This document shows, piece after piece, positions 6,997-29,788 of a stretch of 34,649 nt of DNA. Position 1 is the first letter of the stretch, and every line of letters starts with the position of its first letter. Origin of the DNA: Actinomycetota bacterium (GTDB lineage: Bacteria; Actinomycetota; Acidimicrobiia; Acidimicrobiales; Iamiaceae); assembly GCA_019639095.1 (NCBI GenBank), contig JAHBSN010000007.1, positions 1 through 34,649 on the forward strand. Direction: 5' to 3'. The translations under genes and the position numbers were made by a program. The notes below the pieces were generated by a model. That model was not told where the DNA came from and searched no databases. It was given only the letters and a program-made list of their open reading frames with translations.

Positions 6997-9282
6997 TCAG
7001 CGGTTGCGGGGGAGCTGCAGGCCGCGCTCGGCGATCACGCCGCGGAGCACCTCGGAGGTGCCGCCGTAGATGGTGGTCACCTGGCAGTGCCGGTAGATGG
7101 CCTCGATCCACCCGTCGGCGGCGGTGGCCGACGGGTCGCCGTGGCGGCGCAGGCCGTCGGGCCCGAGCGCGTCCACCAGCTCGTTGGCGGCGAACTGGTA
7201 GTGCTCGGTGGTGAACAGCTTGGCCATGGTGCCCTCCACGCCCGGGAGCGTGCCCTCCGAGGCCATCCACGCGGCGCGCCACCCGAGCAGGTTCGACACC
7301 TCGTTGCCGATGGCGATCCGGGCCAGGCGCTCGCGCACGAGCGGATCGTCGGCCATGGTGCCGCCGGCGGGCGACGGGGCGGTGCGGGCCCAGCCGAGGC
7401 CGTGGTCGAGCAGGCGGACCAGCTCGCCGTACCAGGCCGAGTTCCGCTCGAACACCAGGGCGGTCATCATCACCGACCAGCCGCCGTCGACATCGCCGAC
7501 GCGGTACTTGTCGTCGACCTTCACGTCGTCGTAGTACGTGATGTTCGTGCGCTCGCCACCCATGGTGTGGACCGGGGTGACCGAGATGCCGGGCTGGTCC
7601 ATGGGCACCACGAACATCGTGAGGCCCTTGTGCTTGGCCACCTCGGTGTTGGTGCGGGTGAGCAGGAACACGTAGTTCGCCTCGTGGGCGAGCGTGGTGA
7701 ACATCTTCTGGCCGTTGATCGTCCACTGGTCGCCGTCGCGCACGGCGCGGGTGGCGCAGGCGGCCACGTCGGAGCCGGCGTCGGGCTCGCTGTAGCCGAG
7801 GCAGCACATGGCGGCCCCCGAGAGGATCTCGGGGATGATCGTGCGCTTCTGCCAGTCGGTGCCGTCGAGCAGGATCGTGTGGGCCACGAGCGAGGCCACG
7901 CCGAGGCCGTCCACCGGTGCGCCCGACAGGTACATCTCCTCCTGGAGGGCGTTCATCTCGAGCGGCGAGCGGCCCCCGCCGCCGAACTCGGCGGGCCAGC
8001 CCGCCGAGATCCACCCGGCGTCGGCCATGGCCCTGTGGAGCCCGTTGTCGTGGATGGTGCCGGTGTGGTGGGCACGCTCGATGATCTCGTCGGTCACGTG
8101 CTCGGCGAGGAAGGCCCGGACCTCGGCGCGGTACTGCTCCACGTCGGCGCCGAGGCGGAAGTCGAATCCGCCCTGGTCGTCGTGGCCGGGGGCGGCAGCC
8201 TCAGATGCCTGGTCGGCGCCCCGGGTCGAGCGGTGGGTGGAGCCGGGGATCGGTCCGCTGGTGGGGTCGTCCCAGAGGCGACCGGCCAGCGCCTGCAGCT
8301 CTCGGCGCGGGTCGCCCAGCACCAGGCGGGCCGCCTTGGCCCGGCGGAAGTGCAGCTGGATGTCGTACTCCTCCATGAACCCGTAGCCGCCGTGGACGTG
8401 GAGGGCCCAGGCCGCGGTGCGCTGGGCGGTGTCCCCGCAGAACCAGAAGGCCATCGACGGGAACGACGTGGCCACGGGGTCGCCGACGTCGATTGCCCAC
8501 ACCGCCTTGTTCGAGAGGAGGTCGGCGCCGTCGAGGTCGGTCTGGAGGTCGGCGAAGCGGTGCTGCAGGGCCTGGAAGGACCCGACGGCCACGCCGAACT
8601 GGCGGCGGTCCTTGGCGTACTGGATGCCGATGGCCTGGGCCTCGCGTCCGAGGCCCACGAGCCAGCGGGCGGTGAGGGCGCGCCACTCGTCGACGGCGAG
8701 GGCGTGGACGGCCCGTGCGGCGGGGCCGCTGGCGAGCACCGTGCGGGTGCCGGCGGCCAGGTCGACGTCGGCCAGGGGCGCCGAGCCCAGGTTGGTGGGG
8801 GAGCGGGGCGGCTCGGCGGGCTGGACCACCACGAGGTCGTCGCCGTCGAGGGCGATCACGGCGGTGGCCACGGCGGCGCCGGGCACGAGGGCGGCCCGCC
8901 CGTCTACCGACGGGTGCAGGGCGAGCACCACGGGGTCGCCCCCGGCCACGAGCTCGGCGAGCACGCCCGCCGAGGCGTCGGTGTCGGCGTGGCGGGCCAG
9001 CAGGCGGGCGGCCACCATCGCCTCCACCACGGGGGCCGACGCGAGGCGGGCGCCGGCGGCCTCGGCCACCACGGCCAGGTCCCGCAGCGACGCGCCGGAC
9101 CCGCCCTGGGCCTCGGGCACGCCCAGCGTGGGGATGCCCATCTCGGTCAGCCCGGCCCAGACCTTCGGGTCCCAGCCGAGCGGTTCGGCCTCCCGGACGG
9201 CCTCGGGCGACGACGCCTTCTCCAGGAAGCGCGCGACCGCGTCGCGCAGCGCTTCCTGCTCCTCGGTGGGCTGCAGGTGCAT
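6997..9282 (-). CDS. Two-domain fused acyl-CoA dehydrogenase (FadE34/FadE6-type architecture)
   Basis: A 761-residue protein made of two acyl-CoA dehydrogenase units. The first (about 1-340) is of the small, degenerate subunit type, with KDRRQFGVAVGSFQALQHR at 224-242 and ALHVHGGYGFMEEYDIQLHFRRAK at 293-316. A Gly/Ser/Ala-rich linker follows (about 341-370). The second unit (about 375-761) is of the active type: CLGYSEPDAGSDVA at 494-507, WTINGQKMFTT at 520-530, HKGLTMFVVP at 551-560, FERN with candidate base Glu612, and TIYGGTSEVLRG at 737-748. This order (inactive half first) is that of mycobacterial FadE34, which desaturates a steroid C24 acyl-CoA; sequence identity in the second half looks moderate, so orthology is not claimed. 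A KstR-like box overlaps its -10 region, and TAGGAT lies 7 nt before the ATG. Confidence 0.85.
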   Translation of the reverse strand: MHLQPTEEQEALRDAVARFLEKASSPEAVREAEPLGWDPKVWAGLTEMGIPTLGVPEAQGGSGASLRDLAVVAEAAGARLASAPVVEAMVAARLLARHADTDASAGVLAELVAGGDPVVLALHPSVDGRAALVPGAAVATAVIALDGDDLVVVQPAEPPRSPTNLGSAPLADVDLAAGTRTVLASGPAARAVHALAVDEWRALTARWLVGLGREAQAIGIQYAKDRRQFGVAVGSFQALQHRFADLQTDLDGADLLSNKAVWAIDVGDPVATSFPSMAFWFCGDTAQRTAAWALHVHGGYGFMEEYDIQLHFRRAKAARLVLGDPRRELQALAGRLWDDPTSGPIPGSTHRSTRGADQASEAAAPGHDDQGGFDFRLGADVEQYRAEVRAFLAEHVTDEIIERAHHTGTIHDNGLHRAMADAGWISAGWPAEFGGGGRSPLEMNALQEEMYLSGAPVDGLGVASLVAHTILLDGTDWQKRTIIPEILSGAAMCCLGYSEPDAGSDVAACATRAVRDGDQWTINGQKMFTTLAHEANYVFLLTRTNTEVAKHKGLTMFVVPMDQPGISVTPVHTMGGERTNITYYDDVKVDDKYRVGDVDGGWSVMMTALVFERNSAWYGELVRLLDHGLGWARTAPSPAGGTMADDPLVRERLARIAIGNEVSNLLGWRAAWMASEGTLPGVEGTMAKLFTTEHYQFAANELVDALGPDGLRRHGDPSATAADGWIEAIYRHCQVTTIYGGTSEVLRGVIAERGLQLPRNR

Positions 9283-9293
9283 GGTGCGAATCC

Positions 9294-9307
9294 TAGAACC
9301 CGTTCTA
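9294..9307. promoter_or_regulatory. KstR-like operator upstream of fused acyl-CoA dehydrogenase
   Basis: TAGAACCCGTTCTA fits the KstR consensus TnnAACnnGTTnnA at every fixed position, with perfect 6-bp arms. It overlaps the minus-strand -10 hexamer TAGGAT (9290-9295), so a bound repressor would block the promoter. KstR is the TetR-family repressor of cholesterol catabolism in mycobacteria; its gene is not in the window. Confidence 0.75.
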
Positions 9308-9326
9308 CTTCTCCACCCCACCGACC

Positions 9327-9381
9327 GAATGTGCGGTACCCCAGCGGCGTTCCTTCCGATCTCGCGCGTGATGTTCGCCGG
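9327..9381 (+). repeat. ~55-nt interspersed repeat, copy A
   Basis: Begins with GAATGTGCGGTACC and ends GATCTCGCGCGTGATGTT plus CGCCGG; a variable middle of about 17 nt separates the two conserved blocks. It forms an inverted pair with copy B, 24 nt away, and could fold into a long imperfect stem-loop. Non-coding. Confidence 0.75.
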
Positions 9382-9405
9382 CCCAACCAACCGTCCGCCC
9401 CGTCG

Positions 9406-9460
9406 CCCGTCAATCTCACGCGCGAAACCGACGCGAACGCGGCTCCGGTACCGCACATTC
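9406..9460 (-). repeat. ~55-nt interspersed repeat, copy B (inverted)
   Basis: Read on the minus strand it begins with the identical GAATGTGCGGTACC, has GCGTT in the same place as copy A, and ends with TTCGCGCGTGA followed by a diverged tail. It is inverted relative to copies A and C. Confidence 0.75.
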
Positions 9461-9488
9461 GCCGGGGGTGGGTCCGGGCCACCGAGGT

Positions 9489-9544
9489 GAATGTGCGGTA
9501 CCAGGGCTGCAGGAACGCGGGATATGCGCGTGCGGTTCGGGCGG
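9489..9544 (+). repeat. ~55-nt interspersed repeat, copy C
   Basis: Starts with the identical 14-nt block GAATGTGCGGTACC; 32 nt after its first base comes GATATGCGCGTGCGGTTC, an imperfect match to the end block of copy A. It lies 28 nt after copy B and just upstream of the putative promoter of the DUF2237 gene. The whole stretch 9283-9577 contains no convincing gene; these three copies, the KstR-like box and a promoter fill it. Confidence 0.65.
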
Positions 9545-9563
9545 GATCGGGCGGGGCGGCTGC

Positions 9564-9569
9564 GATACT
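9564..9569 (+). promoter_or_regulatory. -10 hexamer for the DUF2237-pepF pair
   Basis: GATACT lies 8 nt before the ATG of the DUF2237 gene and no ribosome-binding site is visible, which points to a leaderless transcript. The -35 region falls at the end of repeat copy C, but no good hexamer is evident. Confidence 0.35.
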
Positions 9570-9577
9570 CGGTCGCC

Positions 9578-9988
9578 ATGGCCGAACCACGAGCGGAGCG
9601 CAACGTGCTGGGCAGGCCCCTCGAGCCCTGCGGCACCGACCCCATGACCGGCTTCTTCCGGGACGGGTGCTGCGCCACCGGCCCGGAGGACCAGGGCAGC
9701 CACACGATCTGCGCGGTGGTGAGCGCCGAGTTCCTGGCCCACCAGCGCAGCATCGGCAACGACCTGAGCACGCCCATGCCCCAGTACCGCTTCCCCGGCC
9801 TGGTGCCCGGCGATCGGTGGTGCGTCACCGCCCGCAACTGGGCGCTGGCCTACGACGCCGGGGTGGCCGCCCCCGTGGTGCTGGCCGCCACCAACGAGGC
9901 CGTGCTCGAGCTCGTGCCGCTGACCGCCCTCCAGCAGCACGCGGTGGACGTGCCCGACGACCCGGGCGACCTGGAGGAACCGTCGTGA
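9578..9988 (+). CDS. DUF2237 family protein
   Basis: A 136-residue protein that is almost entirely DUF2237 (COG3651): NVLGRPLEPCGTDPMTGFFR at 9-28, the DGCCATGPEDQGSHTICAVV segment at 29-48, FLAHQRSIGNDLSTPMPQYRFPGL in the middle, PGDRWCVTA and YDAGVAAPVVLAATNEAVLE toward the end. The family is widespread and conserved, but no function is established; the conserved Cys residues (CCATG, RWC) suggest metal or redox chemistry, which is inference. Its TGA overlaps the GTG of the downstream peptidase (GTGA), so the two are co-expressed. Confidence 0.9.
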   Translation: MAEPRAERNVLGRPLEPCGTDPMTGFFRDGCCATGPEDQGSHTICAVVSAEFLAHQRSIGNDLSTPMPQYRFPGLVPGDRWCVTARNWALAYDAGVAAPVVLAATNEAVLELVPLTALQQHAVDVPDDPGDLEEPS

Positions 9989-22055: not shown

Positions 22056-23237
22056 GTGCACATCGCGTACACGCCCGAGCAGGAAGCGCTCCGCAAGGAG
22101 CTGCGGGACTACTTCGCCGAGCTGATGACCCCGGAGGTGCTCGCCGATGCGTCGGCGGGCGAGACCGGCAGCCCGGCCTGCCTGGAGGCGGTGCGCCAGA
22201 TGGGGCGGGACCGCTGGCTCGGCGCCGGCTGGCCCACCGAGTACGGCGGCCGGGGCTTCGGGCCGGTGGAGCAGTTCATCTTCATGAACGAGTCGTGGCG
22301 GGCCGGGGCCCCCACGCCGTTCCTGTCGATCAACACCGTGGGCCAGACGATCATGCAGTTCGGCAACCAGGAGCAGAAGGACTTCTTCCTGCCTCGCATC
22401 CTGGCCGGGGAGCTGCACTTCTCCATCGGCTACACCGAGCCCTCGGCCGGCACCGACCTGGCGTCGCTCACCACCAAGGCCGTCAAGGACGGCGACGAGT
22501 GGGTGATCAACGGCCAGAAGATCTACACGTCGCTGGCCAGCTACGCCGACTACGTGTGGCTCGCCGCCCGCACCGACCCCGACGCTCCCAAGCACAAGGG
22601 CATCACGATCTTCGCCGTGCCCACCACCGACCCGGGCTACTCGTACTCGAAGATCTCCACGATGGTGAACGCCAGCACGTTCAACACGTTCTACGACGAC
22701 GTGCGGGTGCCCGACAGCGCCATCATCGGCGAGCTGCACGGTGGCTGGAACCTCATCGTCAACCAGCTCAACTACGAGCGGGTGGGCCTCGCCCCGCCCG
22801 GGATGATGGAGAAGAACTACGAGGACGTGCTCGCCTGGGCCCGGGAGACCGACGCCCCCGGCGGTGGTCGCGTGATCGACCAGGAGTGGGTGCAGCTCAA
22901 CCTGGCCCGGGTGCGCGCCGGCATCGAGTACCTCACGCTGCTCAACTGGAAGGTGGCGGCGCTCGAGGCGGCCGGCGAGCACGTCAACCCGGCTGACGCC
23001 AGCTCCATCAAGGTGTTCGGCACGGAGTTCTTCACCGACGCCTACCGCCTGCTCGGCGAGGTCGTCGGCCAGGACGCCGTCCTCGCCCACGGGTCGCCGG
23101 CCGCCGCGCTCAGCGCCCGGCTCAACCGCGGCGCCCAGGGCACCCTCATCCTCACCTTCGGCGGTGGGGTCAACGAGATCCAGCGCGATCTCATCGCCAT
23201 GTTCGGCCTCGGCATGCCCCGCATGCCCCGCATGTAG
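22056..23237 (+). CDS. Acyl-CoA dehydrogenase, FadE26-like (ChsE4-type) subunit
   Basis: A 393-residue acyl-CoA dehydrogenase. It begins HIAYTPEQEALRKELRDYF and has MGRDRWLGAGWPTEYGG at 49-65, IGYTEPSAGTDLASL at 124-138, WVINGQKIYTSL at 149-160, HKGITIFAVPTT at 180-191, NYERVGLA with candidate catalytic Glu241 at helix G, and LILTFGGGVNEIQRD near the end. These runs closely resemble mycobacterial FadE26, which with FadE27 makes the heteromeric enzyme that desaturates a 26-oyl steroid CoA. The next gene, 10 bp on, is the matching small subunit. The GTG at 22056 has an AGGAG ribosome-binding site. Two operators stand upstream. Confidence 0.88.
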   Translation: MHIAYTPEQEALRKELRDYFAELMTPEVLADASAGETGSPACLEAVRQMGRDRWLGAGWPTEYGGRGFGPVEQFIFMNESWRAGAPTPFLSINTVGQTIMQFGNQEQKDFFLPRILAGELHFSIGYTEPSAGTDLASLTTKAVKDGDEWVINGQKIYTSLASYADYVWLAARTDPDAPKHKGITIFAVPTTDPGYSYSKISTMVNASTFNTFYDDVRVPDSAIIGELHGGWNLIVNQLNYERVGLAPPGMMEKNYEDVLAWARETDAPGGGRVIDQEWVQLNLARVRAGIEYLTLLNWKVAALEAAGEHVNPADASSIKVFGTEFFTDAYRLLGEVVGQDAVLAHGSPAAALSARLNRGAQGTLILTFGGGVNEIQRDLIAMFGLGMPRMPRM

Positions 23238-29774: not shown

Positions 29775-29788
29775 TGGAACGTGTTCTA
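29775..29788. promoter_or_regulatory. KstR-like operator upstream of echA-like gene
   Basis: TGGAACGTGTTCTA fits TnnAACnnGTTnnA at every fixed position. It overlaps the -10 hexamer TAGTGT (29787-29792), the same geometry as at the fused acyl-CoA dehydrogenase promoter. Confidence 0.75.

Follow-up and report, generated by a model that had tools for sequence, protein, structure and literature searches.

The intergenic region between a double acyl-CoA dehydrogenase gene and a DUF2237 gene (PF09996) holds three related repeats, and the question that it raises is what they are: a structured RNA, a REP- or MITE-like DNA element, or simply a local duplication. An earlier note on the window (the whole stretch of 34,649 nucleotides that was analysed, with a GC content of 73%) described three repeat copies in +,-,+ orientation, each opening with an identical 14-mer and carrying an end block at the same distance. 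This description was confirmed. The 14-mer GAATGTGCGGTACC lies at 9327-9340 (+), 9447-9460 (-) and 9489-9502 (+), and GCGCGTG is found 37 nt from the start of each (GCGCGTGATG in copy A, GCGCGTGAGA in copy B and GCGCGTGCGG in copy C). The features of the region are as follows.

6997-9282, minus strand: double acyl-CoA dehydrogenase gene, a flanking gene whose start faces copy A
9316-9382, plus strand: copy A; C-rich leader 9316-9326, core 9327-9376, short G/C tail; model R1, 64.0 bits, E 3e-17
9377-9410, no strand: tail-to-tail spacer between A and B, 34 nt; sequence unconserved, length among the preferred values 24, 25 or 34
9405-9471, minus strand: copy B, inverted; core 9460-9411, C-rich leader 9461-9471; 66.3 bits, E 6e-18
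9478-9544, plus strand: copy C; core 9489-9538, middle block in the inverted form CTGCAGGAACG; 42.6 bits, E 1.5e-10
9578-9988, plus strand: DUF2237 gene, a flanking gene; likely start codon 39 nt past the end of the copy C core

The greatest divergence is seen in copy C, which matches the 50-nt core consensus at 32 positions, as against 44 in A and 43 in B. Measured on this core, the gaps are 34 nt between A and B and 28 nt between B and C; of the 24 and 28 nt given previously, the second stands, while the first depends on where the end of the unit is set. An ATG within copy C (gaATGtg) opens an in-frame ORF of 165 aa (window 9491-9988), which is the DUF2237 gene extended by 29 N-terminal codons; the true start is likely at 9578.

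Another type of site occurs in the window. Palindromes of the form TNNAACNNGTTNNA are located at 9294-9307, 29775-29788 and 22680-22693, and the one upstream of the acyl-CoA dehydrogenase gene reads TAGAACCCGTTCTA. They presumably resemble the KstR operator, and their number in the genome (26 sites, versus 4 for the reversed control) suggests a lipid-degradation regulon.

A dispersed family confined to one genome

The repeats extend far beyond the window. In the source genome, a 4.0 Mb draft in 475 contigs that is 92.5% complete, the exact 14-mer occurs 60 times (reversed-pattern control: 0), and 114 times when up to two mismatches are allowed (control: 16). A sequence-only model recovers 107 nearly full-length copies at E<1e-4, with 100 scoring above 50 bits and few intermediate, spread over 60 contigs in both orientations; 110 model matches in total were used for the placement counts below. 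A search seeded on the 3' block instead yielded 84 matches, only three of which fall outside the listed copies, and none for the control, which indicates that truncated copies are rare and that the result is independent of the 14-mer. Thus, a local duplication is excluded within this genome. An assembly artefact or contamination, which a draft in so many contigs might invite, has next to no probability, as the genes around the copies are ordinary, their coding flanks are normal and the cores differ from copy to copy. A CRISPR array, already dismissed in the earlier note, is likewise rejected on the mixed orientation and dispersal of the copies.

The repeat unit comprises 62 nt, consisting of a C-rich leader, CCCACCCCGGC, and a 50-nt core, GAAYGTGCGGTACC…GCGCGTGRRGTTC. 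In the aligned copies, the consensus after the leader is GAAYGTGCGGTACC-VVR-GCCGCGTTC-(GC|CT)-GYCGRTYYCGCGCGTGRRGTTC. An alignment of 88 copies contains neither indels nor gaps, the copies are full length, and the edges are sharp, at about -11 and +50, with information at background level by about -12 and +56. The C content of the leader is 72% both near and far from stop codons, and the leader is therefore part of the element. Within the core, 28 of the 50 columns show one base in at least 95% of copies. Beyond a distance of 8 nt, variable columns are almost statistically independent of each other (mean z 0.1-0.3), so there are no clear sub-families. A coding element was rejected, since the GC3-rich frame places the variable columns mostly at codon positions 1 and 2 and not at the third. 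The repeats are a previously uncatalogued family of short dispersed intergenic DNA elements.

Some variation within the core occurs in blocks. Columns 26-27 (GC or CT) and 19-20 (CG or GA) each have two-base states, with single-substitution intermediates almost absent. Additionally, the middle 10-mer stands in inverted form in a few copies (ACGTTCCTGT versus ACAGGAACGT), namely L049:608-674 (-), C48:9870-9933 and window copy C, as though the centre had turned round.

No counterpart was found in any other genome searched. A profile search of 60 relatives, 11 of them in the same genus, gave no match above 21.4 bits, and a 26-position pattern had no match in a further 396 genomes of the order, in the GTDB species collection or in IMG/VR. 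Comparison with plasmids and phages by blastn found nothing. A looser 17-base pattern returned 27 singletons only, spread across many phyla, and these were taken as chance matches rather than divergent relatives. The nearest relative examined (G010; DUF2237 identity 87%) showed no comparable repeat family among its commonest 14-mers in the approximately 0.5 Mb covered. The family is called species-specific here in the sense that it is present in its own genome and in no other searched, in collections that may omit records of that genome. The lack of conservation in relatives, which the earlier note would have taken, together with a lack of further copies, as a sign of local duplication only, here marks lineage specificity.

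Placement, pairing and insertion

Genes were called with a purpose-made simple codon-usage gene finder. By these calls, 108 of the 110 matches are intergenic, and one of the two exceptions may reflect a misplaced start codon. In gaps offering a stop codon, single elements lie at a median of 4 nt from the nearest stop, compared with 12 under the null, and none of 200 random placements was as close on average. In tandem gaps, 41 of 51 elements are closer to the stop than to the start (p 1.5e-5). Convergent, tandem and divergent gaps are all occupied, and there is no strand or orientation bias relative to GC skew. Such stop-adjacent placement would be expected if the insertions that persist are those that do no harm, and E. 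coli REPs are likewise often found near stop codons (PMC12306157).

To judge by their commonest domain families, the neighbouring genes are unremarkable. Flanking proteins, 142 in number, match 203 Pfam families, the 25 commonest of which are ordinary and include no transposase. Gene cassettes enclosed by inverted copies (e.g., on C107, C161 and C195) were considered and rejected, as the enclosed genes encode ordinary-looking proteins. One such interval, C161:1430-3362 (L109), contains an AbiEi/AbiEii-type toxin-antitoxin-like two-gene module between two inverted copies, possibly by coincidence.

Direct evidence of insertion comes from one copy, C58:6287-6351(-), which lies in frame within a long ORF, P0001. 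Homologues of its product in G010, G008, G001, G023, G005 and G013, as well as a paralogue in the same genome, have 12-17 residues fewer exactly at this place. Their empty site indicates that the copy was inserted. It is the sole clear case of this kind. At the window junction no syntenic empty site was available, the DUF2237 and acyl-CoA dehydrogenase genes not being adjacent in the relatives' loci; in the part of G010 that was read, 1 of 25 syntenic junctions holds a copy in the source genome, and the corresponding G010 gap is built differently. In a search for target-site duplication, direct matches between the flanks were not consistently enriched at any offset or length.

Single units are the main form (63 of 110), and copies standing close together differ according to their arrangement. 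Among head-to-tail neighbours, 5 of 11 pairs are near-identical, agreeing at 19-21 of 22 variable columns compared with 14 for random pairs, which points to local tandem duplication. The nine intact tail-to-tail pairs, in turn, agree at a mean of only 11.6 of 22, below the random value. The core gaps of tail-to-tail pairs take only the values 24 (six pairs), 25 (two) and 34 (two, including A/B of the window), and the spacers are unrelated in sequence despite these fixed lengths. The centres of such pairs would lie about 74 or 84 bp apart, corresponding to 7 or 8 helical turns, and the fixed distance suggests that units bound by protein touch each other. Conservation is as high in single units (43.5 of 50 core positions, n=63) as in tail-to-tail members (42.3 of 50, n=24).

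These features may also be read as a chromosomal network of sites for a dedicated DNA-binding protein, either a nucleoid organiser or a global regulator, in which selection keeps the core and the phase of the pairs. Long invariant blocks, independent variable columns, spacing steps of one helical turn between unrelated spacers, the scarcity of truncated copies and the equal conservation of single and paired units are all consistent with it. However, adaptive regulation would hardly be expected to place its sites next to stops in any type of gap, insertion within a coding sequence and absence from all relatives searched are odd for such a network, 62 nt would make a long binding site, and orientation does not follow GC skew. 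We regard this explanation as possible but doubtful.

Folding and action at the RNA level

The suggestion that the region encodes a structured RNA was not borne out. Single units fold like their shuffles (mean z -0.2 on the plus and 0.06 on the minus strand), an RNAalifold consensus has almost no covariation, and Rfam gave no match up to E=1. Inverted partners, being less alike than random pairs, also argue against it. The ends of the consensus are weakly inverted (CCCGGCGAA / TTCGCCGGG), but they do not co-vary in individual copies, and the idea that the flanks pair into a hairpin stem was rejected. The potential for alternative A/B and B/C stem-loops, claimed earlier, does exist: the repeat region folds with z of -2.3 and -2.2, and 3 of 200 shuffles are equally stable on each strand. 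It is a mere by-product of related copies standing in inverted orientation.

Action on the upstream mRNA as a 3' element, for example a terminator, a rut-like site or a translation-stalling structure, is a separate matter. Among co-directional copies, 48 of 63 start no more than 16 nt past the stop of the upstream gene, the C-rich leader following it immediately, and ribosome stalling can be caused by REPs lying no further than 15 nt from a stop, according to work cited in PMC12306157. Nevertheless, such a role is very unlikely. The orientation preference is weak (63 copies in the direction of the upstream gene and 43 opposite, p=0.06), 21 copies occupy divergent gaps, the leader is equally present far from stops, and neither a fold, nor covariation, nor an Rfam match accompanies the element.

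Proposed mode of spread and relation to known repeats

The family has about 107 nearly full-length copies of 62 nt with sharp boundaries, lies between genes and close to stops, has no counterpart in the relatives searched and shows one insertion within a coding region. On these grounds, the three repeats probably represent a lineage-specific, non-autonomous, short dispersed mobile DNA element. A sequence-specific recombinase or transposase would act on the duplex and carry copies of single units to new sites, as the whole core is conserved and no hairpin is needed. The core would be read by a protein, and the enzyme would act in trans, from a gene elsewhere or one that has since been lost. Surviving insertions would come to rest mostly in the harmless slots directly past stop codons, head-to-tail arrays would often grow by local tandem duplication, and tail-to-tail pairs would arise from separate events, at a distance that helical phase dictates (core gaps of 24/25 or 34), so that two protein-bound units may touch. 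The 28 near-invariant columns, the few decayed copies and the unlinked distant columns speak against mobility, as they look more like present selection than like a neutral mobile repeat with sub-families. The absence of target-site duplication, of a linked transposase or recombinase and of more than one clear empty site weighs against it too.

A more specific form of the mobile-element reading can be offered tentatively, and we consider it improbable as it stands: a new class of element, non-palindromic and Y1-independent, copied as a single 62-bp duplex by a sequence-specific enzyme, with a second unit placed opposite at fixed helical phase and an occasional 10-bp central inversion suggestive of a recombinase-like core.

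Short dispersed bacterial repeats tend to be attributed either to REPs driven by a RAYT or to the MITEs of a resident insertion sequence. The present family displays REP-type genomic behaviour in copy number, stop placement and inverted pairs without the palindrome or, as far as the assembly goes, the RAYT transposase, and its paired copies hold an exact phase though the intervening sequence is unrelated. It provides a clean case in which both the spread of such repeats and their possible reading by a protein can be put to the test. For this species, the copies might also be used as markers in strain typing and annotation.

The REP/MITE-like label of the earlier note holds in kind, given more than 100 dispersed intergenic copies, restriction to this genome and one insertion, and does not extend to a strict REP. 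A true REP/REPIN family, with tail-to-tail pairs as the replicating unit and a RAYT gene either lost or missing from the 92.5%-complete assembly, is quite unlikely. Its appeal is that high copy number (over 100 extragenic copies), short length, stop-proximal intergenic placement, species specificity and inverted pairs with spacers constrained in length and variable in sequence are all described for REPs, BIMEs or REPINs (PMC3116915, PMC3733652, PMC12306157). Several features differ. In place of an imperfect palindromic, foldable unit of 20-60 nt, there is a non-palindromic one of 62 nt without a hairpin, whose core ends, GAAYGTG and GTTCG, bear no GTAG or CGTC tag when the alignment is inspected by eye. 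The RAYT (Y1) transposase that the earlier note proposed to look for was not detected, with no PF01797 match at E<=10 in the source genome, whereas 10 of 14 control genomes were positive. Moreover, single units outnumber pairs and are equally conserved, whereas in REPINs the doublet is the conserved form, and inverted partners here avoid similarity.

Other systems share individual traits. RIB elements, BIMEs that bind IHF where transcription units end at their 3' side (cited in PMC2817692), resemble the family in 3'-end placement and possible protein binding, but here conservation resides in the repeats and not in the spacer between them. MITEs are similarly non-autonomous and dispersed, with sharp ends, and the C58 insertion at a site empty in homologues agrees with them. 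The consensus ends of the family are weakly inverted, without covariation between them in individual copies. Unlike MITEs, the family shows no target-site duplication, and no parent transposon was found.

The MIRU of mycobacteria is a short dispersed repeat of a GC-rich host that lies at gene junctions beside stops and grows head to tail. Set beside this general description rather than the MIRU sequence, the family is alike in being short and dispersed in a GC-rich host, in its stop-adjacent junctions and in its head-to-tail duplication; it differs in that single units predominate, copies point either way, convergent and divergent gaps are occupied too, and tail-to-tail spacing is specific. 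Since the palindrome, the tag (as judged by eye), the RAYT and the dominance of doublets that characterise REPs and REPINs are not found, and MITE status is unproven without target-site duplication, the family is best placed, with MIRU weighed by its general description only, as a new family of bacterial short interspersed repeat.
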